This document shows, piece by piece, positions 2,692 through 46,406 of a DNA stretch of 46,406 nucleotides; within the stretch, counting starts at the first letter, position 1; every line of letters begins with the position of its first letter. The position numbers and the translations under genes were made by a program. Under the pieces are notes generated by a model, which saw nothing but the letters and a program-made list of their open reading frames with translations, searched no databases and was not told where the DNA came from. The DNA is taken from positions 1 to 46,406 of IMG/VR virus record IMGVR_UViG_3300043787_000086. The stretch is one strand, 5' to 3'. The stretch comes from a virus.

Positions 2692-4577
2692 GATCCGCCT
2701 GTGAGGATGCCGAGTGTGAACACCAACGTCTTGGCTTGGTTGACGGTACAGGTTTGGGTCAGGCCGGTCGAGGTGTTGGCGATGAAGCCGCCTGTTGCCT
2801 TGACTGTACCCTGGACGGCCAGATTGTTGGCGCTGGGATCGCCGGGAGGTGTCGTGCCGATGACGACGCCGCCGCTGGTGTAAAGGGCCATTGAATGCGT
2901 CAAGCCGGCGTTCGTATCAAATCCCATGTTGCCGTTGAAGGCGGTGATGCGGCCCATTTCAGTTGTGTTGTTATAGTAGAATGCTGCAAGATTGCCGATG
3001 AACTGAACGGCGTAGGCCGTTGACCAGCGATTTGAAGTCCCACCCAGCGCTATAGCATTGTCTACTGTAGGTTCGAAAACGGCGGCCTGCTGAACAGTGA
3101 TTGCACTCCCGTTGACCTGAAACTGAATGTCCTGTCCGGTTGGAGCGTTGAGAGCTAGATTTGTAGAGGCAGGCGCGCTGACACCGGCCACAGTGAAAAC
3201 GCCGCTGCTGGATAGTGTTGCCTGTGTCGTCACGCTGCCGCTGCCGATGAGTGAACTAAATTGCAATAGGCTTGTCGGTGCGGTCGAGCCTTGAATGGGC
3301 GCCACGTTGATGAACCAGTCGGTATTTTGACTAGCCGCTGTGGAGGCCGTTTTCCAACCCTGGCCCGACAAGTGTACGTTCGGGCTACTTTGCTGCGCGC
3401 CGTTGGCCGCCGCAGTCGTGTTTTCCAGCAACAACCCATCGCCGGCATTTGTCGGCTGCGAGCCACCGAGAGCATTATCAATGCCGGTAATCTGGCCAAC
3501 GAAACGCGAGATCGAATTGACGTTGAAGCCGTTACCGTCGCCCCAAATTTCGCTGTCCACTCCCGGCGTGCTATCAAGCCAGCGGATCGTAGCGGCATGG
3601 CCAGAATTGCCACCACCGGGCAGGTCCGCGAAGATCGAACAAGAGCCGCCGCAGCCGACAGTTGGATCGAGCGCCGTGGCGAGGACGTTAATGCCTCTGC
3701 GGAAAGTGTGATAGCCGCCGTAAGCGATGTCGATGGCGGCCGATGGTTTCGCCGCTGCAAGCCCCGCATAGGCGCCGGACGTGATCAGAAGCCCAAGGGT
3801 TTCGCCATTGGCATTGGCGTTCGGTGTGACATCGGCCGTCGTCGCAGCGTTGATGTCGAGTTGTTGGCCGAGTGTTGTGCAGCCATTGCTCCCAGTAGAA
3901 TAGCATCCACTGTGCTGTACGCCAATGCCAAGAATAGCATCAGCTATCGGAGAATGTCCGAACGTATCGTCATTGTAGGCAATGAACAGACCGCCTTGCG
4001 AACCGGCCGATGCACTTCCTGCATAATTGAAAAAATCTGAGGTTCGCGCGTAGCCGGTGATGCCTGTTGTGCCGAGTGCTGTGCCGGACGCGAGTTGCGA
4101 TGTTCCGACGATGGCCCGATTGAATAGCGTATCGAGCCACGATGGCGTTGAGGGAAGGCCCGCGAGCAGATAGTCAGCTGACGCCAGTGACGCCTCGCCG
4201 ACCTTCACGCGGTTCATATTAAAGATGACGCCATTCGATGGCAGCGCTGAACCGCCGGTACATGGATACGTCGTGGCATTGACGCAGGGATTGAAGAACG
4301 CCGTATAGGCTTTGTTGGCGTCGAGTGCACTTGGCAGCAGCGTCGTTTGATTGTTAAAGCCCGTCGCAAACAGATTGTTGGTCAGTGTTGCAAACGGTAT
4401 CGCCTGCCCCGGCCCTGGCGGCTGACCTACAATGCCAAGCCGACCATAGACGGTCTGCGACGGCAGATTTGGTGGGGCCGATTGCCCACAACAAACTGCC
4501 GCGCTCAGCAGCAAACCAAGCGCGGCAGCGGGGGCTGACAGCAAGTGTTTCCACATGCGGGTGGAGAATAGCATCAT
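2679..4577 (-). CDS. Large tail fibre/spike-like protein with signal peptide
   Basis: 632 residues. The start at 4577 follows AGGAG, and a nearby ATG at 4556 would also keep the hydrophobic N-terminus. The N-terminal 30 residues contain a hydrophobic LGLLLSAAV core and look like a Sec signal. The remainder is a low-charge, Gly/Ser/Thr/Asn-rich beta-structured protein with the fibre-type motifs LGGTSNRWSTAYA and VKATGGFIANTS, and a Cys-containing C-terminus (GGSCNS). Tail-fibre tips of Rhizobiales prophages often end in a similar way. It is the last structural gene before lysis. An exported fibre is odd for a virion part and is treated as a finding. Confidence 0.7.
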   Translation of the reverse strand: MMLFSTRMWKHLLSAPAAALGLLLSAAVCCGQSAPPNLPSQTVYGRLGIVGQPPGPGQAIPFATLTNNLFATGFNNQTTLLPSALDANKAYTAFFNPCVNATTYPCTGGSALPSNGVIFNMNRVKVGEASLASADYLLAGLPSTPSWLDTLFNRAIVGTSQLASGTALGTTGITGYARTSDFFNYAGSASAGSQGGLFIAYNDDTFGHSPIADAILGIGVQHSGCYSTGSNGCTTLGQQLDINAATTADVTPNANANGETLGLLITSGAYAGLAAAKPSAAIDIAYGGYHTFRRGINVLATALDPTVGCGGSCSIFADLPGGGNSGHAATIRWLDSTPGVDSEIWGDGNGFNVNSISRFVGQITGIDNALGGSQPTNAGDGLLLENTTAAANGAQQSSPNVHLSGQGWKTASTAASQNTDWFINVAPIQGSTAPTSLLQFSSLIGSGSVTTQATLSSSGVFTVAGVSAPASTNLALNAPTGQDIQFQVNGSAITVQQAAVFEPTVDNAIALGGTSNRWSTAYAVQFIGNLAAFYYNNTTEMGRITAFNGNMGFDTNAGLTHSMALYTSGGVVIGTTPPGDPSANNLAVQGTVKATGGFIANTSTGLTQTCTVNQAKTLVFTLGILTGGSCNS

Positions 4578-7500
4578 GGGGTGGCTCCTGTCGATACCGT
4601 GCCGGTGATCTGCCGCGTCCGGTTGTCGATGCCCTGCCGGATCAGGTGCGCGGCATCCATTTGCAATGCCGCTCTGGCTTTCGCGCGAGCATATTCGATA
4701 ATACCTTTGGCCCGCGCGGCTTTCTGCGCATCCGGGGCATTCTGGTACAGCGACGTTTGCATGTCTTTTGCCAACATCTGTTTCACAAGTGGCCCGGCAG
4801 TAGCTTCATATCGGTCGTATTGGTCGTCGTTGAGCTTGACGTGACCGATGGTGCGCTGCGGGGCCTCTGGATAGTATTTGAGACGGTCAAGCTCGGCTTT
4901 GACTGCATCCGTATTGACCGGCGCCGACCGAAACGGTGCAGCATGGTAGCCGGGATTTGGCACGGGCTCGCCATAAAGCGGATCACGTTTCGGCATCAAT
5001 TCCTCGCGGGCATACGGCGTCCTCATCATGATGCCGCGCAGAACCGTGTCGGCTTCGCGCATGAACGGATCGTGCTCGCTGGCGAGCTGGGCGCCCATGG
5101 TGAACGGGTCGAGATAGGAAGCCGCCTGGTAGGCAGCTTCCTTGGCTGCTTCCTTCGGGTTCTCGATGGCATTGACCAGATTGCGCACGGTCTGGAACCC
5201 AACGTCATCAGTGACCACCTTGGCCGTTCCAAGCCCCATCAAGAATGCCGCCTTCATCAGCGATTCATCCTGATCGCCCTCGTACTGCTTGATGATCGCG
5301 GCGTAGTTGGCGGCCAGCCGCGGCACGGCCCCCATGACCGGACCAAGCCGTTCCAGGTTCTGCCATTGACCGTTAACCAGAACGGAATTGGGCTGAATGC
5401 CCATGATCTTCCAGCGGTTACGTTCCTTCTCATCGGTCGGATAATCGCCGGTGCTCTGGCCGCTAAGCGCTAGGTTGATAAAATATGTCCCGACTGCAGT
5501 GCCGATCGAAGCCTTGACCAACGCGAGGTTCTGCGCCTCGACACCGAGTTCGCCGCGCAATGCGGAACCAATCCTCGATGCCTCGACCGGCAATGTCGCG
5601 GCTGCCATCCATGAATACCGCACACCGGCACGGGCAATGTTCATCGGAATATGGGTGAACATGAACACCCATTTCAGCGGCGTATTGCGTGCGAGTTCGG
5701 AGAACACTCGGGTTTGCTCACCGAGCTTTTCCATGAAGGTGCCTTCATAGGAACTGTCGATCACTCTCGTTAATGCCTCGTCCGATAGATTTGCCGTGTG
5801 GTATTGATAGCGCGACCAGAACTGTGTGTTACCTTCCTTGTCGATCATTGAAGGCGATAAACCTTCACGTGCCGCCGCCTTGTATGCTTCCGTGGCTGTG
5901 GCTGCGCTCTCGCCCATGAACTTGAAAAAGGTGTGCTGGAAATTGGCTGAGCGGCCGAACACGCCAATCACCCGTTCCGCTTTTGCCAATTGCTCGTCGT
6001 TAAACACTTTCTTCCATAGGCCCCACTCGGGACCTGACGTGCTGGTGTACGGAACCTGCGCGCCTTCCGCTTCCGGGTTTTCCAGTTGCCGCTTTGCCAG
6101 CTCCCATTCGCTCAATAGCGGCACGCGCTGGCCGCTCTTGAATGCCAGCACGGCCTTTTGAAATGCGTGCGGCACCGAACGAACAATGGCATTGTAGGCT
6201 TCGAGCGGCGCGCCAAAGTCTGCCGGTGCACCACGCACTTTGTTGAGCAGTTGCTGGCCAAGTGGCGCAATGACGTGATCCAGCATTATCTCAACGCCGT
6301 TGACTGCCGAGTATCCGGCGTGAGTGATCGGACCTGAGATGAGCAAGTTCTGGACCGTCCAGTAATACCAAGGCATCGGCTTGAACGGGCTGAGAACAAG
6401 AATGCGCGGGCGAGCCGCAGCGGGCGCTTCGGCAATCAGCTTGGCACGCTCGCGCAGGTCGTCGATACCCTTGAGTTTTTCAACGCCTGCGGCATCGCGC
6501 ATGGACTTCTGAAAGTCGCGCAAGGTATTGCCAGCCCGGCCCCACTCGGCGCGTAATGCTGCATAACCTTTCACGGCCACGGTCGAATCCAGCATCAACT
6601 GCCGCTGCAGTTCCAACTGCATGAGCGCGACGCCTTCGGCAGAGTCGTCGATGCCACGCTTGGCACGCAGTTCATCCGCAGCAGTGGCAATCTTGTCGTT
6701 GATGGTGCGGAATGCCTCGGTGAAATTACGCAGTTCCACATCGCTCTTGATCTTACTGCTGGTCCCGGCAACATCGATTTTGGTCGAGTCCAATCCAGTG
6801 ACACTGGCAATCTGCTCGATCTGTACCGGCCGCATGTCGCCAATACGCGCGGCGGCAAATTCATCGTTGGCGTCGACGATGCCACCAATGACCTGACGCA
6901 CATCGTCGCGCGTCGCCATATTGTCCAGCGTGCGTTCCCACCGCTTGCGCCACTCGGTCTGTTCCGGTTTGACCTCGCCAGTCACCTTGTCCGGCGGTCG
7001 GCCGGCAGCCATCGCAGCGCGGCCAGCTTCCTTGGGCGGCAATTCGTTGAGCGACGGCGCGGCACGGTCATCGCCGATCACTCCCAGCTCACGCGCCTGC
7101 TGCAGCATCGGTTGGGCGGATTTGGGCCGCAGTTCCGGCGCGTTGCGGATGATGTCGTAGCCGCGTGCGGTTTCTTCCGGTGTGGGCTTGGTTTCTGTTA
7201 CCGGCTCGCGGTCGATGTTCGGCACATGATCGTGCGGGTACGGCTTCTGATAAAGACTTGCCGGCACATCCCCGCCGGTGTTCTCACCCTGGATTTTCGG
7301 CAGCCACGACATCTGCTCCTTCTCGGCCGCCACCTGATCGATGCCGTGCGCGCGATACCATGCCTGTTCGGCAGGTTCGGCGAAGTTGAAATGCGCGACC
7401 TTGTACGCTGTCTCGTCGTCCATCCCGGCCTTGATCAGAATGTCCATGGTGTGCTGTTCGACATTCTCATGCACCACCCACGGATCGGCCGGATCAAACG

Positions 7501-31905: not shown

Positions 31906-32397
31906 TCATACGGTCACCATCCTCTGGCGTACCGCCAGTTGCGCATGATACGGACAATACGAACAGCCATTTTGCTGCACTGCACCACAATACAGCATGT
32001 TCACGTCCGGTTCTTCCGAAACCGGGAACCGGCACGAATCATCCTTTAGACCCATGATCTTGACCGCCAGGGATAAGCTGGGTGCGTCAATTGGGATTTG
32101 GGGTGGCTGAGTGGCCGGCGCTTCAAAGACCAGCGTAGGGTCGCCCCTGGGCCGTCGTGGGGTATTGAGCGTAATCCGCGCATTACCCACTCCGGCCCGG
32201 ATACGGCGCTGCTTGGGCTTGGAAGCCTGCTTAACGATGGCAATACCGCGACGGTAGCACATGCCGAGTATGGCATTGCGGCTCATCTTCATCTTGTCCG
32301 CCATCTGCCGTGCGGACAACCCTTTGGCCGCCAACACCTGCAACTGCTCAACGCGCTCGATTGGCCAATCGCTCTTACCTGTGCCGCGATAGGTCAT
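31906..32397 (-). CDS. gcrA: GcrA-family cell-cycle regulator
   Basis: 163 residues. The N-terminal DNA-binding part, DWPIERVEQLQVLAAKGLSA followed by RQMADKMKMSRNAILG and MCYRRGI, matches the GcrA helix-turn-helix. The C-terminal part, DSCRFPVSEEP ... YCGA ... GCSYCPYHAQLAV, matches the cysteine-containing sigma70-contact region. In Caulobacter-type bacteria GcrA recruits sigma70 RNA polymerase to promoters carrying CcrM-methylated GANTC sites. The phage copy, coupled by ATGA to an XRE-type repressor, could redirect host RNA polymerase to phage or host promoters. The linker is longer and more Pro/Arg-rich than I expect from chromosomal copies. Confidence 0.8.
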   Translation of the reverse strand: MTYRGTGKSDWPIERVEQLQVLAAKGLSARQMADKMKMSRNAILGMCYRRGIAIVKQASKPKQRRIRAGVGNARITLNTPRRPRGDPTLVFEAPATQPPQIPIDAPSLSLAVKIMGLKDDSCRFPVSEEPDVNMLYCGAVQQNGCSYCPYHAQLAVRQRMVTV

Positions 32398-33636: not shown

Positions 33637-33703
33637 CCGCGTGGCAACATGCGGTTCGACCGTGCCGGCTCCTGCACAACAGCCCCTCATAGGAGCCGGC
33701 GAG

Positions 33704-33711
33704 GTTCTTTT
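33704..33711. repeat. Target-site duplication, left copy
   Basis: GTTCTTTT directly precedes the left end of the insertion element and is repeated exactly at 35291-35298 directly after its right end. Eight base pairs is the duplication length usual for the IS1595 family. Confidence 0.85.
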
Positions 33712-33737
33712 CATGCCTATCGGGTTGACACATACAG
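33712..33737. repeat. IS left inverted repeat
   Basis: 26 bases starting CATGCCTATCGG. Matches the inverse of 35265-35290 at 22 positions. It includes the -35 element of the promoter that drives the element's genes. Confidence 0.85.
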
Positions 33738-33753
33738 CGACCTGTGCTAGTAT
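33725..33753 (+). promoter_or_regulatory. IS-borne promoter
   Basis: TTGACA (33725-33730), 17 bases, TAGTAT (33748-33753), reading into the passenger and transposase genes. The -35 lies inside the left inverted repeat, so a transposase bound to the end would repress its own gene. Confidence 0.55.
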
Positions 33754-33792
33754 CCTGTCATTGGGCAACCCCGCCCTTTGATGGAGAGGAAG

Positions 33793-34017
33793 ATGCGAAC
33801 GAAAGAAAAGAAGGCAGCTTACGTTGGTCGCAGCCCTGACGGCGTGCGGCGCTTGTTTGCGCAAGATCAAGACCCGGCGCGCGCGATGGCAGAAGCTTTT
33901 GATGCCGCCCGGAAATACATCAAGGAGCGGCCGGATTGCGGTCCTTTGGAAAACTGGAGCTTTCTCCCCGCTACTATTCTCGACATGAAAGCCGTGATGT
34001 ACGGGCAGGAGGGCTGA
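33793..34017 (+). CDS. IS passenger protein 1
   Basis: 74 residues from the ATG at 33793, preceded by GGAGAGGA (an ATG at 33781 is possible). Charged, helical, with KKAAYVGRSPDGVRRLFAQD and ARAMAEAFDAARKYIKERPD. Not recognised. It is the first gene in the insertion element and ends three bases before the next start, so both passengers form one transcript with the transposase. Confidence 0.6.
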   Translation: MRTKEKKAAYVGRSPDGVRRLFAQDQDPARAMAEAFDAARKYIKERPDCGPLENWSFLPATILDMKAVMYGQEG

Positions 34018-34020
34018 GCT

Positions 34021-34206
34021 ATGGCCAAAACCAGGGCTAGCCAGTGGTGGACCGTCTATCAGATGCTTGATCGCCTGTTCACCGCGCCAGAGGCAATCGA
34101 ATGGCTTGAAACCCCGAACGTGGATTTGGGCGACCGTAAGCCTGAAGATTGCAAGGCAGAGGATGTCATTGCGGCCCTGAAACTCCTGCGGAAGGAGTTG
34201 GCGTAA
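34021..34206 (+). CDS. IS passenger protein 2, MbcA/ParS-like (DUF2384-type)
   Basis: 61 residues with a strong AGGAGGG site. The C-terminal half, EAIEWLETPNVDLGDRKPED followed by a V-x-x-x-L-x-x-L helix, resembles the short C-terminal domain of Xre/MbcA/ParS antitoxins (pattern A-x-x-W-L-x-T-P-N-x-x-L-G-x-x-P). Here it is alone, without a helix-turn-helix part and without a RES-type toxin beside it. It could regulate transposition or be an orphan antitoxin-like module. The transposase gene starts directly after its stop. Confidence 0.5.
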   Translation: MAKTRASQWWTVYQMLDRLFTAPEAIEWLETPNVDLGDRKPEDCKAEDVIAALKLLRKELA

Positions 34207-35250
34207 ATGCCCCCGCACGCCGACGTGCTCCAATGGGAGCATCTGCCATTCCCCAAGTCGCTCCGGGACTTCCAACGGTTGTTCCCGGACGACACGGCCT
34301 GCGCCCGCTACCTCGAAGGCGCCAAGTGGCCGAAAGGCTTTGAGTGCCCGCACTGCCACGAAAAGGGCGAGCCGTTCCGCATGGCGACGCGGACCAGCGT
34401 CCTGACCTGCCGGAAATGCCGCAAGCAAACGTCCCTGACGGTCGGAACCGTCATGGCCCGGACGCATACGCCCCTGACAACGTGGTTTTGGGGCGCGTAT
34501 CTGGTCTCGACCGTGACTCCGGGCATATCCGCCGTCCAATTCCAGCGCCAGCTTGGCCTTACCGTTTACGAGACCGCGTTCCAAATCCTGCACAAGCTCC
34601 GCGCCGGCATGGTCCGCCAAGGGCGCGACCGGATCGGCGGCAATCTTGGCCGTGGCGATCACGTCGAGATTGACGAAACATGGCTCGGCGGCAAGACGCG
34701 CGGCGAAGGACGTGGCACTCATGATATGACGCTGGTCGCGGCGGCTGTCGAAGTCCGCACCCGGCCGGCTAAGAAAGGCGACAAGCCGCAGCGTCGCGGC
34801 GGGCGCTATGCCGGGCGGTTGCGCCTCGAAATCGTGCCAACGCGCGGCGCCAGGTCTCTGGGCGGCTTTGTAGAAGCGGCGGTAGAGCCGGGCGCCATGG
34901 TGATTACGGACGCATGGGGCGGCTACAACGGGCTTGGCGCCCTTGGCTATGACCATCTGCCGGTCGCGCAAGCCAACGATCCCAAGGTGGCCGAAGAGTA
35001 CCTGCCGATCATCCACCTTGTTTTCAGCAACCTGAAAGCTTGGCTGCACGGCACGCATCACGGGGCGATCAGCCCTAAGCATCTGCAAACTTACCTCAAC
35101 GAGTTCACATTCCGCTTTAACCGCCGCTTCTATCCGTTCAACGCCTTCCGTTCGTTGCTCGGTATCGGGACGAACGGCGAAGGCCCGACTTACGACGGGC
35201 TGTACGACGGAACCTGGAAACACGCGACGATGGAAAGCCATCATGACTGA
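34207..35250 (+). CDS. IS1595-family transposase
   Basis: 347 residues, apparently intact. N-terminal zinc ribbon with C47-x2-C50 and C68-x2-C71, then a helix-turn-helix region (FQRQLGLTVYETAFQILHKL). ISXO2-like DDE-type nuclease core: D156 in VEIDETWLGG, D235 in VITDAWGGY and the FSNLKAWLHGTHHG block. The C-terminal LNEFTFRFNRRFYP is typical of the family. It would excise and insert the element with an 8-bp duplication, as seen here. Confidence 0.9.
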   Translation: MPPHADVLQWEHLPFPKSLRDFQRLFPDDTACARYLEGAKWPKGFECPHCHEKGEPFRMATRTSVLTCRKCRKQTSLTVGTVMARTHTPLTTWFWGAYLVSTVTPGISAVQFQRQLGLTVYETAFQILHKLRAGMVRQGRDRIGGNLGRGDHVEIDETWLGGKTRGEGRGTHDMTLVAAAVEVRTRPAKKGDKPQRRGGRYAGRLRLEIVPTRGARSLGGFVEAAVEPGAMVITDAWGGYNGLGALGYDHLPVAQANDPKVAEEYLPIIHLVFSNLKAWLHGTHHGAISPKHLQTYLNEFTFRFNRRFYPFNAFRSLLGIGTNGEGPTYDGLYDGTWKHATMESHHD

Positions 35251-35264
35251 TCGACCCATGGGGT

Positions 35265-35290
35265 CTGTATGTTCAAAGCCGATAGGCATG
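35265..35290. repeat. IS right inverted repeat
   Basis: Ends CCGATAGGCATG. It is the inverse partner of 33712-33737. Its last three bases, ATG, are in frame with the phage gene that follows. Confidence 0.85.
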
Positions 35291-35494
35291 GTTCTTTTTT
35301 CAGCAGAGTACGTCGCGAAGTGGCGCGCGATCATCCAGCGGGCGACGAGCGCGAAGGAACTGCACGAGGCATGGAAGGCCGACAAGGCGACGCGTAATAA
35401 GATCACCTGGCCGGACGACAGCAGCTTCGACGATCTGAAAGACGAGGTGACACGCGCCATCGACTTCATGAAGAAACCGGCGCAGGTCGAATAG
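35288..35494 (+). pseudogene. Phage gene with 5' end disrupted or replaced by the IS
   Basis: The readable product is 68 residues, starting MVLFSAEYVAKWRAI, where the ATG is the last codon of the IS end. The body (ATSAKELHEAWKADKATRNK, then LKDEVTRAIDFMKK) looks like a normal small helical phage protein. Joining the flanks across the duplication gives an open frame upstream with GTG codons at 33641 and 33662, but neither has a good ribosome site. Thus the original start is uncertain. The gene may be silenced, or expressed from the IS-supplied start. Confidence 0.55.
35291..35298. repeat. Target-site duplication, right copy
   Basis: GTTCTTTT, identical to 33704-33711 on the other side of the insertion element. 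Confidence 0.85.
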
Positions 35495-38295: not shown

Positions 38296-38507
38296 ATCTC
38301 CCCGCCGACAAAATCCCAACCGACGCCACGGCATTTCGGAAATGGGCCGATGCCGCCTGCCCGCAATGGCCCGGCGGCATGAGCGACGCGGAATGGTTCT
38401 GCACTATGGCCGAGATCGGTCGCAGGCCGCAGTTTACCGCAAAGGAGTTGCTTGAGCGAGTTCCGGCCATCGCGCAGAAGATGGCTGACGCGGTTTGCGC
38501 CGAGTAA
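38292..38507 (+). CDS. Paralogous small protein A (LPADKIPTDA motif)
   Basis: 71 residues. The first 28 residues (NLPADKIPTDATAFRKWADA, then ACPQWPGG) are nearly the same as in the gene at 40073-40282, with long stretches identical at DNA level, while the C-terminal halves differ. The shared part looks like a small domain joined to different tails. Function unknown. Confidence 0.65.
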   Translation: MNLPADKIPTDATAFRKWADAACPQWPGGMSDAEWFCTMAEIGRRPQFTAKELLERVPAIAQKMADAVCAE

Positions 38508-40072: not shown

Positions 40073-40282
40073 ATGACCATCCTCCCCGCCGACAAAATCC
40101 CAACCGACGCCCCGTCATTTCGGAAATGGGCCGATGCAGCGTGCCCGCAATGGCCCGGAGAACTGCAAGTCCTCGCCTATCGCGCTTGGCAATGGCTGGA
40201 CGGGATGAAGTTTCGGTCGGCTGCGGACCATGAGGCGTTTATGGCGGGGTATAAGCGATACATTGGCGCTGGCACACCATGA
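40073..40282 (+). CDS. Paralogous small protein B (LPADKIPTDA motif)
   Basis: 69 residues. The N-terminal part (ILPADKIPTDAPSFRKWADA, then ACPQWPGE) repeats the gene at 38292-38507, and the C-terminal half (YRAWQWLDGMKFRSAADHEA) is different. Overlaps the next gene by ATGA. The pair looks like a duplication followed by domain swapping. Confidence 0.65.
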   Translation: MTILPADKIPTDAPSFRKWADAACPQWPGELQVLAYRAWQWLDGMKFRSAADHEAFMAGYKRYIGAGTP

Positions 40283-40728: not shown

Positions 40729-41007
40729 ATGCTCGTCAGATGCAAAGACTGCGGTGCGGATTACGATGATGCCGACCGCCTGACTTACTGCCCGTACGAA
40801 CTCATCATGGGTGCGGCTGATCTTGAACAGAAAAAGGTTGGCTTGGCATTGATCGGCAAGCAAGTCTGCTTTGCTCATCAACCCAAAGGACCGGCGCATC
40901 GGGTTCAAGCTATCGGCTGGAACGGCATGGTCACGCTCGCCGATATGGTTGGCGAGTTTGCACCGCACATTTTCGTGCCGGCGACCGCGGATAGCGGCTG
41001 TGGTTAG
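40729..41007 (+). CDS. Small protein with N-terminal zinc ribbon
   Basis: 92 residues. RCKDCGADYDDADRLTYCPY has C-x2-C and a third Cys, then a helical part and a beta-rich end (VCFAHQPKGPAHRV, LADMVGEFAPHIF). A Cys4-type metal site is possible. Overlaps the next small gene by eight bases. Confidence 0.55.
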   Translation: MLVRCKDCGADYDDADRLTYCPYELIMGAADLEQKKVGLALIGKQVCFAHQPKGPAHRVQAIGWNGMVTLADMVGEFAPHIFVPATADSGCG

Positions 41008-41125
41008 TCGCATCCCTTCCGCTCTGGACGCCATCGCGGACAAAGTTCTGCGATACCGGCCCAAGCCCAAGTCAAAGCCCGCCCGCCGCCGCAAGCGCCG
41101 AGCGGCAAAACTGGCGTCAAAATGA
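41000..41125 (+). CDS. 41-residue very basic protein
   Basis: GTG start at 41000 in the end of the previous gene. IPSALDAIADKVLRYRPKPK followed by an Arg/Lys/Ala tail. I recall small proteins with a V-L-x-Y-R-P-K-P-K-S-K motif in Rhizobiales phages. Its DNA end lies five bases before the inverted repeat of the radical SAM cassette. Confidence 0.55.
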   Translation: MVSRIPSALDAIADKVLRYRPKPKSKPARRRKRRAAKLASK

Positions 41126-41129
41126 GCGA

Positions 41130-41186
41130 ATGGACTCATGTATATAATTCCCCTTGGGAATCATGCTTATCCGGTTGCCACACACA
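41130..41186. repeat. Cassette left inverted repeat
   Basis: Segment 1 (41130-41152, ATGGACTCATGTATATAATT plus CCC) matches the inverse of 42091-42113 at 21 of 23 bases. Segment 2 (41162-41176, CATGCTTATCCGGTT) matches 42074-42088 at 15 of 15. ACACACA (41180-41186) matches 42064-42070. The left copy has extra bases (CTTGGGAAT) that form a small palindrome ATTCCC/GGGAAT. TATAAT (41143-41148) could act as a -10 element for the gene. Confidence 0.8.
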
Positions 41187-41204
41187 AACGCTGAGACCTA
41201 CTAG

Positions 41205-42074
41205 ATGTTGAGGCTGATCCGAGTTTTTCCGAGAAAGACGCGCGCAACGCCTGACGACGCGCTCGCCTACTTTGGACCGCCCGATATGTTTGCCGAGGCT
41301 GACGAAGTGCATGTCTCGGTGACGTTCACGCAAGACCGGGCGATCGCCGAACGATTGGCAGAGCAATGGCGCCACGTCGCGCCGGTCAAGATCGGCGGCG
41401 TGGCCTACAACGATGCCAGCCTCGAATTTATTCCCGGCCGCTACGTCAAGCCCGGCTATACGATCACATCGCGCGGCTGTCCGCGCCGCTGTTGGTTCTG
41501 CGGCGTCTGGAAAAAGTGGCCGGTCGCCAACCCGCTGCCAATCTACGATGGCTGGAACGTCCTCGATGACAATCTGCTGGCGTGCCCACGCGATCACGTC
41601 GAGGCCGTATTCGCCATGCTGCGGCGCCAGAAAAGCCCAACGGGGCGCATTGAATTTACCGGCGGCTTGGAGGCCCTTTCGCTGCAAGACTATCAGGTGG
41701 ACCTTCTGGCGAGCTTGCGGCCCCGTCCAAACATGTTTTTCGCCTATGATCCCGGCGACGCTTTCGAGACCTTGGAAAGCGCCGCAAGCCGGATGCTGGC
41801 GGCGGGATTCACCGCGCGGTCGCATCGGCTCCGCGCCTACGTCTTGATCGGCTATCCGAAGGACACGTTTGCCGAGGCGGAAAAGCGGCTCAATCAGATG
41901 ATGTCGATAGGGATTACGCCGCACGCGATGCTATGGCGCCCCGATACGCCATCGCAGGAAAAGCACGCGCCTGGCCCGGAGTGGAGAGGATTTCAGCGGC
42001 GCTGGGCGCGGCCAACTATCATCCACGCAAAGGCCGCAGCATGCCAGACACAAGCTGTAGGGCTGTGTGTCTAA
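41205..42074 (+). CDS. Radical SAM enzyme
   Basis: 289 residues. ITSRGCPRRCWFCGV carries the 4Fe-4S motif C92-x3-C96-x2-C99. Following blocks, PIYDGWNVLDDNLLACPRDH, IEFTGGLEALSLQDYQVDLL and RLRAYVLIGYPKDTFAEAEK, fit the rest of a partial TIM barrel. The N-terminal 85 residues (RVFPRKTRATPDDALAYFGP) are a family-specific extension with VKIGGVAYND, which recalls cobalamin-type relatives but lacks their binding motif. I recall close relatives in phages and prophages, with no known substrate. It makes a 5'-deoxyadenosyl radical, and the target may be RNA, protein or a metabolite. No strong ribosome site precedes the start. Confidence 0.8.
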   Translation: MLRLIRVFPRKTRATPDDALAYFGPPDMFAEADEVHVSVTFTQDRAIAERLAEQWRHVAPVKIGGVAYNDASLEFIPGRYVKPGYTITSRGCPRRCWFCGVWKKWPVANPLPIYDGWNVLDDNLLACPRDHVEAVFAMLRRQKSPTGRIEFTGGLEALSLQDYQVDLLASLRPRPNMFFAYDPGDAFETLESAASRMLAAGFTARSHRLRAYVLIGYPKDTFAEAEKRLNQMMSIGITPHAMLWRPDTPSQEKHAPGPEWRGFQRRWARPTIIHAKAAACQTQAVGLCV

Positions 42075-42113
42075 ACCGGATAAGCATGTTGGGAATTATA
42101 TACTTAAGTCCAT
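42064..42113. repeat. Cassette right inverted repeat
   Basis: Inverse of the left repeat at 41130-41186, lacking the nine-base insertion. It covers the last bases and stop codon of the radical SAM gene (TAA at 42072-42074). Confidence 0.8.
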
Positions 42114-42138
42114 GACCCCCTAGAGGTAGGAGCCCAGG

Positions 42139-42369
42139 ATGCGATTGACGGATGGTCAGAAAATAAGCCTTGGCCTCGGACTGATCTCGCTCCCCCTGGC
42201 GATGTTGCTCGCTCAGGTGACAGAACTGGTTGCTGGTGACCCGACTAGCTGGAAAGGCAAGCTGATATTTACCGCCGGAGGCTGGTTCGCTCTCGCGATG
42301 CGCGAATATGCAGCGTGGGTCAAAAGAGAACGGCGTAAATTGATGTGTAGCAAGACAAGCAGGGCGTAA
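42139..42369 (+). CDS. Small membrane protein
   Basis: 76 residues with GGTAGGAG before the start. Two hydrophobic segments (LGLGLISLPLAMLLAQV and LIFTAGGWFALAM), basic C-terminus (WVKRERRKL). Two-helix topology is holin-like, but the position in the early module speaks for another membrane role such as exclusion. Confidence 0.55.
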   Translation: MRLTDGQKISLGLGLISLPLAMLLAQVTELVAGDPTSWKGKLIFTAGGWFALAMREYAAWVKRERRKLMCSKTSRA

Positions 42370-42372
42370 ACG

Positions 42373-42480
42373 ATGACCGCTACATCTAGGGCCAAGGGAG
42401 TCAAGGGGATAGTTCCCTTCCCCTTCATAGAGCCGGAATGCCAATGGCTCGAAGGCGACGCCGCCAACGACAATCAGTGA
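42373..42480 (+). CDS. 35-residue protein
   Basis: Starts three bases after the previous stop. The sequence has VKGIVPFPFIEPECQWLEGD and ends in AANDNQ. Such short 'F-P-F-x-E-P-E-C-Q-W-L-E-G' peptides seem conserved-like, but I cannot name them. Confidence 0.4.
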   Translation: MTATSRAKGVKGIVPFPFIEPECQWLEGDAANDNQ

Positions 42481-42487
42481 GGCCCCG

Positions 42488-42682
42488 ATGGTTCTCTTAG
42501 AGTGCAGCCCGCCGTTTCAATGGAAGCCGTCGCTACGAACCGACATCGGCGACGGCTGGCGGTTCATGTGGGGATGGTTCGCTGTCGCCTATGTGCCGTA
42601 TGGGTTTGGTGAATACATCGAAGGCTTGGCCCAAGCGGGAATTGAACTTTACGACAAAGGCGAAATTGAAATCAGGCGTTAA
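42488..42682 (+). CDS. Small early protein
   Basis: 64 residues, aromatic-rich (LECSPPFQWKPSLRTDIGDG, then WRFMWGWFAVAYVPYGFGEY) and acidic at the end. The stop lies in a leader copy shared with the gene at 43668. Not recognised. Confidence 0.5.
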   Translation: MVLLECSPPFQWKPSLRTDIGDGWRFMWGWFAVAYVPYGFGEYIEGLAQAGIELYDKGEIEIRR

Positions 42683-42703
42683 CCCGTCCAAAGCAGGGAG
42701 ATT
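42680..42703 (+). repeat. Start-associated leader repeat, copy 1
   Basis: 24 bases, TAACCCGTCCAAAGCAGGGA then GATT, identical to 43640-43663. It begins with the stop codon of the upstream gene and ends with the ribosome site of the downstream gene. Confidence 0.8.
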
Positions 42704-42707
42704 CCAG

Positions 42708-43028
42708 ATGAGTGCCCAAGACATTTTGAGAGAGCATATCAGACAGCACCTTCATTGGGGGCCGCTCGATGGTGCCGATCGAATGAGGTTCATGACGCTT
42801 GCCCTATGTGGCGAGGCAGGTGAGCTTGCAAATCTCGTTAAGAAGGACTGGCGCGGAGACAAAGGCATTTCCGAGCGCCGGGCCAAGATGATTGAGGAAC
42901 TTGCCGACGTTGGCAACTACGCTTTCATGATCGCGGAATTGCTTGGCATTGATCTTCAAAAAGAAATGCTCACCAAACTTTTAGCGGTCGAGCAGCGCTC
43001 CGAATGGCGCGCGGCGGCTAATCAGTAG
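42708..43028 (+). CDS. MazG-like nucleotide pyrophosphohydrolase
   Basis: 106 residues from the ATG at 42708 with GGGAG before it. CGEAGELANLVKK (E36, E39) and KMIEELADVGNYAFMIAELL (E63, E64, D67) form the E-x2-E ... E-x2-D metal site of all-alpha NTP-PPases. Such enzymes hydrolyse (d)NTPs to NMP and pyrophosphate, cleaning damaged nucleotides or lowering host nucleotide signals. It is a frequent small phage gene. Normal single-domain length. Confidence 0.8.
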   Translation: MSAQDILREHIRQHLHWGPLDGADRMRFMTLALCGEAGELANLVKKDWRGDKGISERRAKMIEELADVGNYAFMIAELLGIDLQKEMLTKLLAVEQRSEWRAAANQ

Positions 43029-43321: not shown

Positions 43322-43642
43322 ATGCAGCACGATTGGGTTCCTTCAACGCTCGGCCACGGCGAGACTATGTGCTCGCGATGCTTTGTTACGAACCGCGAGG
43401 CAGCAGTCCTCGGTATCATGAATACCTGCGATGCGCCCGCGCCCAAGGCCGCAAATGAAAACTGGCCGCAGGATCGAATTGATGACGAAATGGAGCAATA
43501 CGCCGAGGATGACGGGTCAGAGCCCGGCGACGAATGCGGGCGCTGGACGAACGGCCGCCTCGGCCGCCATTGCTCTAAAGCGGGGAGCGAGGAATGCGAG
43601 TTTGAATGCCCCTATCGCACCACCGATGCAGTCAGATGCTAA
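43322..43642 (+). CDS. Cysteine-rich early protein
   Basis: 106 residues. The N-terminus HDWVPSTLGHGETMCSRCFV with TNREAAVLG is a zinc-finger-like block (H ... C-x2-C). A long acidic middle (DDEMEQYAEDDGSEPGDECG) and a Cys-rich end (HCSKAGSEECEFECPYR) follow, suggesting two metal sites. Function unknown. Confidence 0.6.
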   Translation: MQHDWVPSTLGHGETMCSRCFVTNREAAVLGIMNTCDAPAPKAANENWPQDRIDDEMEQYAEDDGSEPGDECGRWTNGRLGRHCSKAGSEECEFECPYRTTDAVRC

Positions 43643-43663
43643 CCCGTCCAAAGCAGGGAGATT
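43640..43663 (+). repeat. Start-associated leader repeat, copy 2
   Basis: Identical to 42680-42703 over 24 bases; lies between the stop at 43642 and the start at 43668. Confidence 0.8.
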
Positions 43664-43667
43664 GAAA

Positions 43668-43910
43668 ATGCTCAGTTTCATCGGTGCCGGGTGCATGGCA
43701 CTCGCAATGTCTGGCGGCGTGGCTTGCTATAGCGGACAGACGCTCTACTGTTCCGATGTTCAGAACGGATCATTTCCGACTTGCACAGAGTGGAACCGTC
43801 GAATGCAGGCGGCGATGGAGCAGATGAAAAGGTCCGGCTGTATGTCACAGGATGGATCAAGTTCTTCCTGCGCCTGGATTGGGCCAGCGCTTCCGGCGAC
43901 TATTCCCTGA
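43668..43910 (+). CDS. Small exported cysteine-rich protein
   Basis: 80 residues from the ATG at 43668. The N-terminus MLSFIGAGCMALAMSGGVAC is hydrophobic and signal-like. The remainder has five Cys (CSDVQNGSFPTC, SGCMSQDGSSSSC). This would suit a disulphide-bonded periplasmic peptide or a lipoprotein. Function unknown. Confidence 0.5.
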   Translation: MLSFIGAGCMALAMSGGVACYSGQTLYCSDVQNGSFPTCTEWNRRMQAAMEQMKRSGCMSQDGSSSSCAWIGPALPATIP

Positions 43911-46098: not shown

Positions 46099-46406
46099 CT
46101 ATGCCACCGAAGGTTTCCCAAAATGCCCGTTGACGTAGGTGTTCAGCCGCGAGTTTATTTCATCGACGCGCCTGCCTTCGGCCATCTGCCGGTCCTCGAT
46201 GCGATCGATCCGGCCACTTTGCTGGGCGAGCGTAACGAGCACGCTGCTTAACGCCTCGATGCCTTTTTTTAATTCCTGGATTTCCTTGGATTGCTGGGCG
46301 CCGATCATTTCAAATCTGGTAGCCATGTTGGCCATGCGCCAGACAATTGCGCCTCCCCCCGCTATAACGCTGATAATTTCCAGCGCTCGCAAGATGTTTT
46401 CCAAAT
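46099..46406 (-). CDS. Small coiled-coil membrane protein, 3' part and overlap copy
   Basis: Second copy of the gene described at 1-273. Here it reads from the window edge (the true start lies 22 bases beyond, as seen at 273) to the stop at 46099, ending LNTYVNGHFGKPSVA. The protein sequence is identical to the left copy wherever both are present. Confidence 0.75.
   Translation of the reverse strand, partial: LENILRALEIISVIAGGGAIVWRMANMATRFEMIGAQQSKEIQELKKGIEALSSVLVTLAQQSGRIDRIEDRQMAEGRRVDEINSRLNTYVNGHFGKPSVA
46156..46406. repeat. Terminal redundancy, right copy
   Basis: Counterpart of 1-251; see that entry for the six silent differences and the 127-bp exact part. Confidence 0.9.

Follow-up and report, generated by a model that had tools for sequence, protein, structure and literature searches.

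The locus considered here carries a radical SAM gene enclosed between inverted repeats, and raises the question of whether this gene lies in a mobile cassette and, if so, where such a cassette begins and ends and what might move it. The window, that is the whole stretch of 46,406 nucleotides analyzed, belongs to a tailed phage with genes for a head-tail adaptor, an internal virion protein, a major head protein and a terminase, and a gene for a GcrA-like cell-cycle regulator (31906-32397, minus strand) points to an alphaproteobacterial host. The two extremities of the record (1-251 and 46156-46406) overlap at 98% rather than 100%, which suggests that the genome is terminally redundant or circular and that slightly differing copies entered its assembly. 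Elsewhere in the window, two neighboring early genes contain 77-bp segments that are 95% identical (38298-38374 and 40082-40158), likely a partial gene duplication, and a 44-nt repeat (82%) containing TAACCCGTCCAAAGCAGGGAGATT precedes start codons at 42667-42710 and 43627-43670, possibly as a repeated translation or transcription signal. An Rfam search of the window gave no match.

Two sets of inverted ends at one locus

The original prediction described inverted copies of about 50 bp around the gene, the left one bearing a nine-base insertion, with no clear target duplication. The inverted copies are indeed present, with 91% inverted identity between the outer arms (41130-41152/42091-42113) and 88% between the inner arms (41162-41186/42064-42088), the latter being perfect over bases 1-15. 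The supposed nine-base insertion, however, consists of one base and an 8-bp sequence, TTGGGAAT, which directly adjoins the inner arms on the outside at 41154-41161 and 42089-42096 and has no further copy in the 46.4 kb. What had been taken for a single end is thus two unrelated ends standing side by side, with the duplication between them (Table 1). Exact 8-bp direct repeats combined with inverted ends matching in at least 15 of 20 positions were detected twice in the window, at the radical SAM cassette and at a resident insertion sequence (IS), against three times in total in 100 shuffles, so the combined signal exceeds chance. The duplicated 8-mers of the cassette, the resident IS and a second nested element, G2, each occur exactly twice in the window. 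Furthermore, the segment 41160-41214 is 92-100% identical to the ends of other elements of the same type (C elements), and 42045-42091 is common to their right ends.

Table 1. Positions of the elements, ends, duplications and genes discussed in the text
Feature	Positions	Strand	Basis or remarks
Probable radical SAM mobile insertion cassette, C-type, 927 bp	41162..42088	+	inverted ends CATGCTTATCCGGTT..., exact 8-bp duplication
Cassette left terminal inverted repeat	41162..41186	+	arm comparison
Cassette right terminal inverted repeat, holds cargo stop codon	42064..42088	-	
TTGGGAAT, cassette's 8-bp target duplication, left copy	41154..41161	.	two copies in window
TTGGGAAT, cassette's 8-bp target duplication, right copy	42089..42096	.	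two copies in window
Radical SAM gene, 289 aa, C92-P-R-R-C96-W-F-C99	41205..42074	+	final ~13 residues from the element's right end
G1 (G-type element to the left), right terminal repeat	41130..41152	+	end of 43 duplication-verified viral-contig G elements
G2, second G-type element, 327 bp, cassette's target; ORF 42139-42369	42091..42417	+	ends match 15/22
TTCCCCTT, G2 target duplication, left copy	41148..41155	.	
TTCCCCTT, G2 target duplication, right copy	42418..42425	.	
CTTCATAG, G1 target duplication, predicted right copy	42423..42430	.	L263 homology restarts exactly at 42423
Autonomous IS1595-family IS, C-type ends	33712..35290	+	duplication GTTCTTTT at 33704-33711, 35291-35298
IS1595-family transposase, 347 aa, candidate helper	34207..35250	+	PF12762 E=1e-31, PF12760, NF033547

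The element bounded by the inner arms has both ends of the ISAcr1/IS1595 type, a target duplication of the 8 bp characteristic of that family, and an unrelated passenger gene, the radical SAM ORF being, as originally noted, the only one between the repeats, with no transposase inside. Single ends, rather than the two full IS copies of a composite transposon, surround the cargo, and the 8-bp duplication together with the IS1595-type ends points away from an integron gene cassette. We therefore propose, with a probability of about 0.93, that 41162-42088 is an IS1595-family mobile insertion cassette (MIC), presumably mobilized by an ISAcr1-like transposase acting in trans; every feature of MIC membership that could be tested on the sequence agrees with this assignment. 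Neither a second copy of this cassette nor its exact empty site (expected to read ...AATTCCCCTTGGGAATTATATAC...) was found, and a DNA search of 50,697 phage records with the whole region gave no match.

The outer-arm sequence ATGGACTCATGTATATAATTCCC is the outward-reading end of a second transposon family, G, with many copies in viral contigs. At this locus two G ends, the right one of G1 (41130-41152) and the left one of G2 (42091-42113), point toward each other, and the spacer between them before arrival of the cassette is CTT. If G2 inserted at the right end of G1, its duplication had to be TTCCCCTT, repeated after the G2 right end; having been inferred in this way, the second copy did turn up immediately after a right end of G type, GGGAGTCAAGGGGATAGTTCCC, which matches the left end in 15 of 22 positions, and within the window TTCCCCTT is confined to 41148 and 42418. 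A related phage (L263), 97-99% identical to the window in parts, is from its position 5833 onward 99.3% identical to the window sequence starting at 42423, with an ORF that is unbroken there. It looks as an unoccupied G1 site would, with identity restarting at the predicted duplication and the frame intact. The left end of G1, searched for via CTTCATAG, was not found, nor were relatives of the G2 cargo in viral contigs. These relationships suggest that G1 was inserted before G2, and G2 before the radical SAM cassette.

The idea that C elements generally prefer G ends as a hot spot was rejected, as a flank scan found such a site for two of the 57 verified C elements, in addition to L263. In L263 itself an autonomous C-type IS (2948-4839, duplication ATATACTT) interrupts a G element with C5 methylase cargo, lying within the left end of the latter. 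Other arrangements include a 46-bp G 'element' consisting of two ends alone (L210, 1669-1714, duplication AAGCGCTT) and a C element between inverted G end fragments on both sides with no direct duplication (L141, 2095-2528).

The C and G families in viral contigs

The inner end pattern matched 81 stretches in metagenomic viral-contig records, with the boundaries of these records taken as given. These yielded 57 distinct C elements with duplications, including the two of the window, and a second scan together with references (plasmid ISAcr1 and a relative) raised the set to 68, of which 65 have exact duplications; shared ends follow from the construction of the search, the duplication being an added requirement that is rarely met by chance. 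The viral contigs also contain 43 distinct G elements with 8-bp duplications. IS1595 transposases are present in both families, and both G transposases tested (2/2) are of this type.

Sister elements provide direct sequence evidence for mobility of the C class. For example, L135 is 99.3% identical over 301 bp to the joined flanks of an element in L074, the difference being the precise absence of the 506-bp cassette together with one copy of its target duplication. Further empty sites are seen in L093 and L178, which match the joined flanks of an element in L140 at 82-83%. In L134 a 235-bp element is present in two identical copies that differ in their duplications, and the cassettes of L067 and L083 are 98% identical although their surroundings are unrelated. 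An empty site of the kind sought by the original prediction is available for a sister element, with none exact found for the radical SAM cassette. The 22-base cassette end occurs without mismatch at 43 viral loci versus one of 84,980 cellular genomes, a Rhodoplanes assembly, and with up to one mismatch in one of 398 sampled genomes of the Rhodoplanes order, again that assembly; as sampling differs between the collections, this excess is to be read as viral enrichment and not as proof of phage exclusivity.

Elements of up to 1.3 kb (n=39) are mostly one-gene cassettes with different genes and a median ORF coverage of 82%. In 34 of the 39 the ORF starts no later than base 70 (at base 40-46 in 17), and in nine it stops within the last 16 bases. 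Many elements have a common left leader (...CCTACTAGATGTTGA) and right leader (...CAAGATGTAGGGCTGTGTGTCTAA), and because of the latter unrelated cargo proteins end in -QDVGLCV; the element ends thus often supply the start codon of the cargo and sometimes its stop codon. Pfam-recognized cargo of C and G elements comprises N6/N4 methylases, C5 methylases, Dam, MT-A70, Mom (one per family), NADAR, PAPS-reductase-like and ASCH proteins, although some of these matches score under the Pfam cut-off, and a number of further cargos belong to no recognized family; the cargos scanned were hand-chosen, favoring long or recognizable ORFs, and imply no frequency. C cargo is oriented with the flanking genes in 17 cases and against them in six (p = 0.035). 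This co-orientation, and the lack of any sigma-70-like promoter found in 40900-42500, fit expression of the radical SAM gene by read-through.

The radical SAM gene makes up 94% of its cassette, with start and stop fused to the element ends, and the predicted overlap of the right repeat with the stop codon holds, the TAA lying within that repeat. Homologues of the protein occur at 60 viral loci, and C ends are absent within 400 bp at 59 of these; in the sole exception (L059) a methylase-carrying C-type IS sits inside the radical SAM gene. In L005, which encodes a 97% identical protein and has no C ends, DNA similarity covers only 41214-42034, which places a junction with element sequence on either side of the gene. 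The same comparison, with 87 synonymous and six non-synonymous codon changes (dN/dS 0.024), indicates that the gene is under purifying selection.

C92, C96 and C99 of the CxxxCxxC motif are invariant in 29 homologues, as are glycine-rich segments. A PHROG radical SAM profile matches at E=1e-14 and Pfam PF04055 at 21.7 bits, under its cut-off of 29.5. The predicted model (pLDDT 83, pTM 0.80) shows a weak resemblance to the methylthiotransferase-type fold of RimO, MiaB and MtaB (E 1e-7 to 4e-6, TM about 0.5), and cluster motif and fold together place the protein in the radical SAM superfamily. No family-level match to methylthiotransferases (RimO/MiaB) was obtained in Pfam or NCBIfam, no PDB chain is related to it by sequence, and a protein search of the 50,697 phage records gave no match. 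The neighbors of its relatives vary, with no single partner as a functional clue; the company of the cassette family suggests instead a role in modification of phage DNA or RNA.

Mobilization and alternative readings

The original prediction reported no transposase, which holds for the cassette itself, but one with matching ends lies about 6 kb upstream in the same phage. This resident IS has inverted ends CATGCCTATCGGGTTGACACATACA similar to those of the cassette, and GTTCTTTT, its 8-bp duplication, has two copies only in the window. Its apparently intact transposase combines a DDE_Tnp_IS1595 domain (PF12762) with an N-terminal zinc ribbon (PF12760) and scores 176 bits against NF033547 (cut-off 75), all above cut-off. 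The named ISAcr1 has ends CTTGCCTATCCGGTTGACTCCC and likewise an 8-bp duplication; the resident IS is 61.8% identical to it and up to 66% identical to plasmid relatives. As its ends match those of the cassette in only 21/25 (left) and 19/25 (right) positions, counted by eye, the resident IS is not necessarily the helper. That a different IS1595 element, of the host or a co-infecting phage, served instead is a variant of our explanation rather than an alternative to it, and falls only slightly short of an even chance: other autonomous C elements, e.g. those of L080, L093, L096 and L103, have a CATGCTTATCCGGTTGACACA end closer to the cassette, whereas the resident IS has in its favor an apparently intact transposase and recognizably similar ends in the same genome. 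Two small ORFs precede its transposase (33793-34206), one of which (34021-34206) weakly matches an Xre/MbcA/ParS antitoxin C-terminal domain (22.5 bits, under the cut-off of 24.5), and the IS is inserted directly behind a hairpin GCCGGCTCCT...AGGAGCCGGC with a T-rich stretch (33640-33711) that is terminator-like by eye.

Three other readings of the locus have to be weighed. Movement of 41130-42113 as a single cassette with ends of about 50 bp would account for both arm segments standing in the same order on each side, but it is highly improbable and already contradicted by the target duplication that separates these segments, by the lack of the outer arm in other C elements, and by the identity of that arm as the outward-oriented terminus of a different family, whose elements have duplications of their own. 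The original idea of a non-autonomous mobile cassette was accordingly right as to kind, the extent being 41162-42088 and the outer arms belonging to the target transposon family. We would give hardly any credence to matched promoters or terminators around a fixed gene, a notion drawn from the TATAAT in the outer arms; this hexamer is part of the G terminal repeat, the region has no sigma-70-like promoter and terminator-like matches only at chance level, and the target duplications and the empty sites of sister elements would be left unexplained. Non-autonomous derivatives usually arise by deletion, and this usual origin would favor decay of an autonomous IS, with loss of its transposase, next to what happens to be a phage gene. 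Yet the element shows no remnant of a transposase and is nearly filled by the gene, with fused start and stop; the 39 small elements have a similar layout with different genes, and L134 and L067/L083 speak for independent transposition of such cassettes. Together these observations make decay very improbable.

Under the preferred reading of a mobile insertion cassette, an IS1595 transposase acting in trans (34207-35250 or a relative with closer ends) would bind the cassette ends and move the segment, leaving an 8-bp duplication. The cassette landed in the left end of G2, itself earlier landed on the right end of G1, and the split G1/G2 ends simulated one inverted repeat of 50 bp. A phage radical SAM gene was probably the source of the cargo, with the left end of the element supplying the ATG and the right end the last residues and the TAA, such that the gene would travel as a ready-made reading frame, probably expressed by read-through.

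Known relatives and implications

These elements are comparable to known MICs, such as IS231-MIC of Bacillus cereus and the qnrD and qnrS2 MICs (PMC3913671, PMC2600179, PMC5444012), which likewise have a passenger gene between IS ends, no transposase, a target duplication and presumed mobilization in trans. The MICs described in the papers located are bacterial or plasmid-borne, whereas the present cassette resides in a phage, has IS1595 ends, is nested in other elements and comes from a large set whose ends often supply the start codon of the cargo and in some cases its stop codon. The IS1595 family and ISAcr1 (PMC8101967, PMC12561309; Siguier et al. 2009 cited there) share the transposase domains, 8-bp AT-rich duplications and ISAcr1-like ends of our elements, but the radical SAM cassette has no transposase. 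The ultra-small mycobacteriophage mobile elements MPME1/2 (PMC3029335) are also sub-kilobase phage elements with inverted ends; however, their insertions add an odd 6 bp at one end where ours have duplicated 8 bp, and the description covers two related types rather than a set with varied cargo. Passenger genes and IS ends are again combined in tIS elements such as ISPa75-fosZ (PMC12888890), but ISPa75 keeps its transposase, with the passenger gene downstream, whereas most of the small elements described here have none. A radical SAM cassette in a phage, which the original prediction considered potentially new, is of a known kind (MIC/tIS), and what we did not find in the open-licence papers searched is a description of phage-borne IS1595 cassettes or of a phage-borne family of such size and cargo.

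We tentatively suggest, at somewhat less than even odds, that these elements form a dedicated phage pool of single-gene cassettes on two IS1595 mini-vector lineages, moving DNA-modification and counter-defence genes among phages of Alphaproteobacteria and rarely settling in bacterial chromosomes. If so, the ends would act as mini-vectors that sometimes give the cargo both its start and its stop codon, and the radical SAM gene would encode an unrecognized base- or nucleic-acid-modifying enzyme. Gene swapping among phages is thought to proceed mainly by recombination, with few insertion sequences carried. A family of phage cassettes with numerous DNA methylase, Mom and NADAR genes as cargo would offer a specific and testable way for counter-defence genes to enter new phages. 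The duplications make each insertion readable base by base, so that gene capture and flow between phages become directly traceable, and the company of the cassette may serve as a guilt-by-association clue to an uncharacterized radical SAM enzyme.
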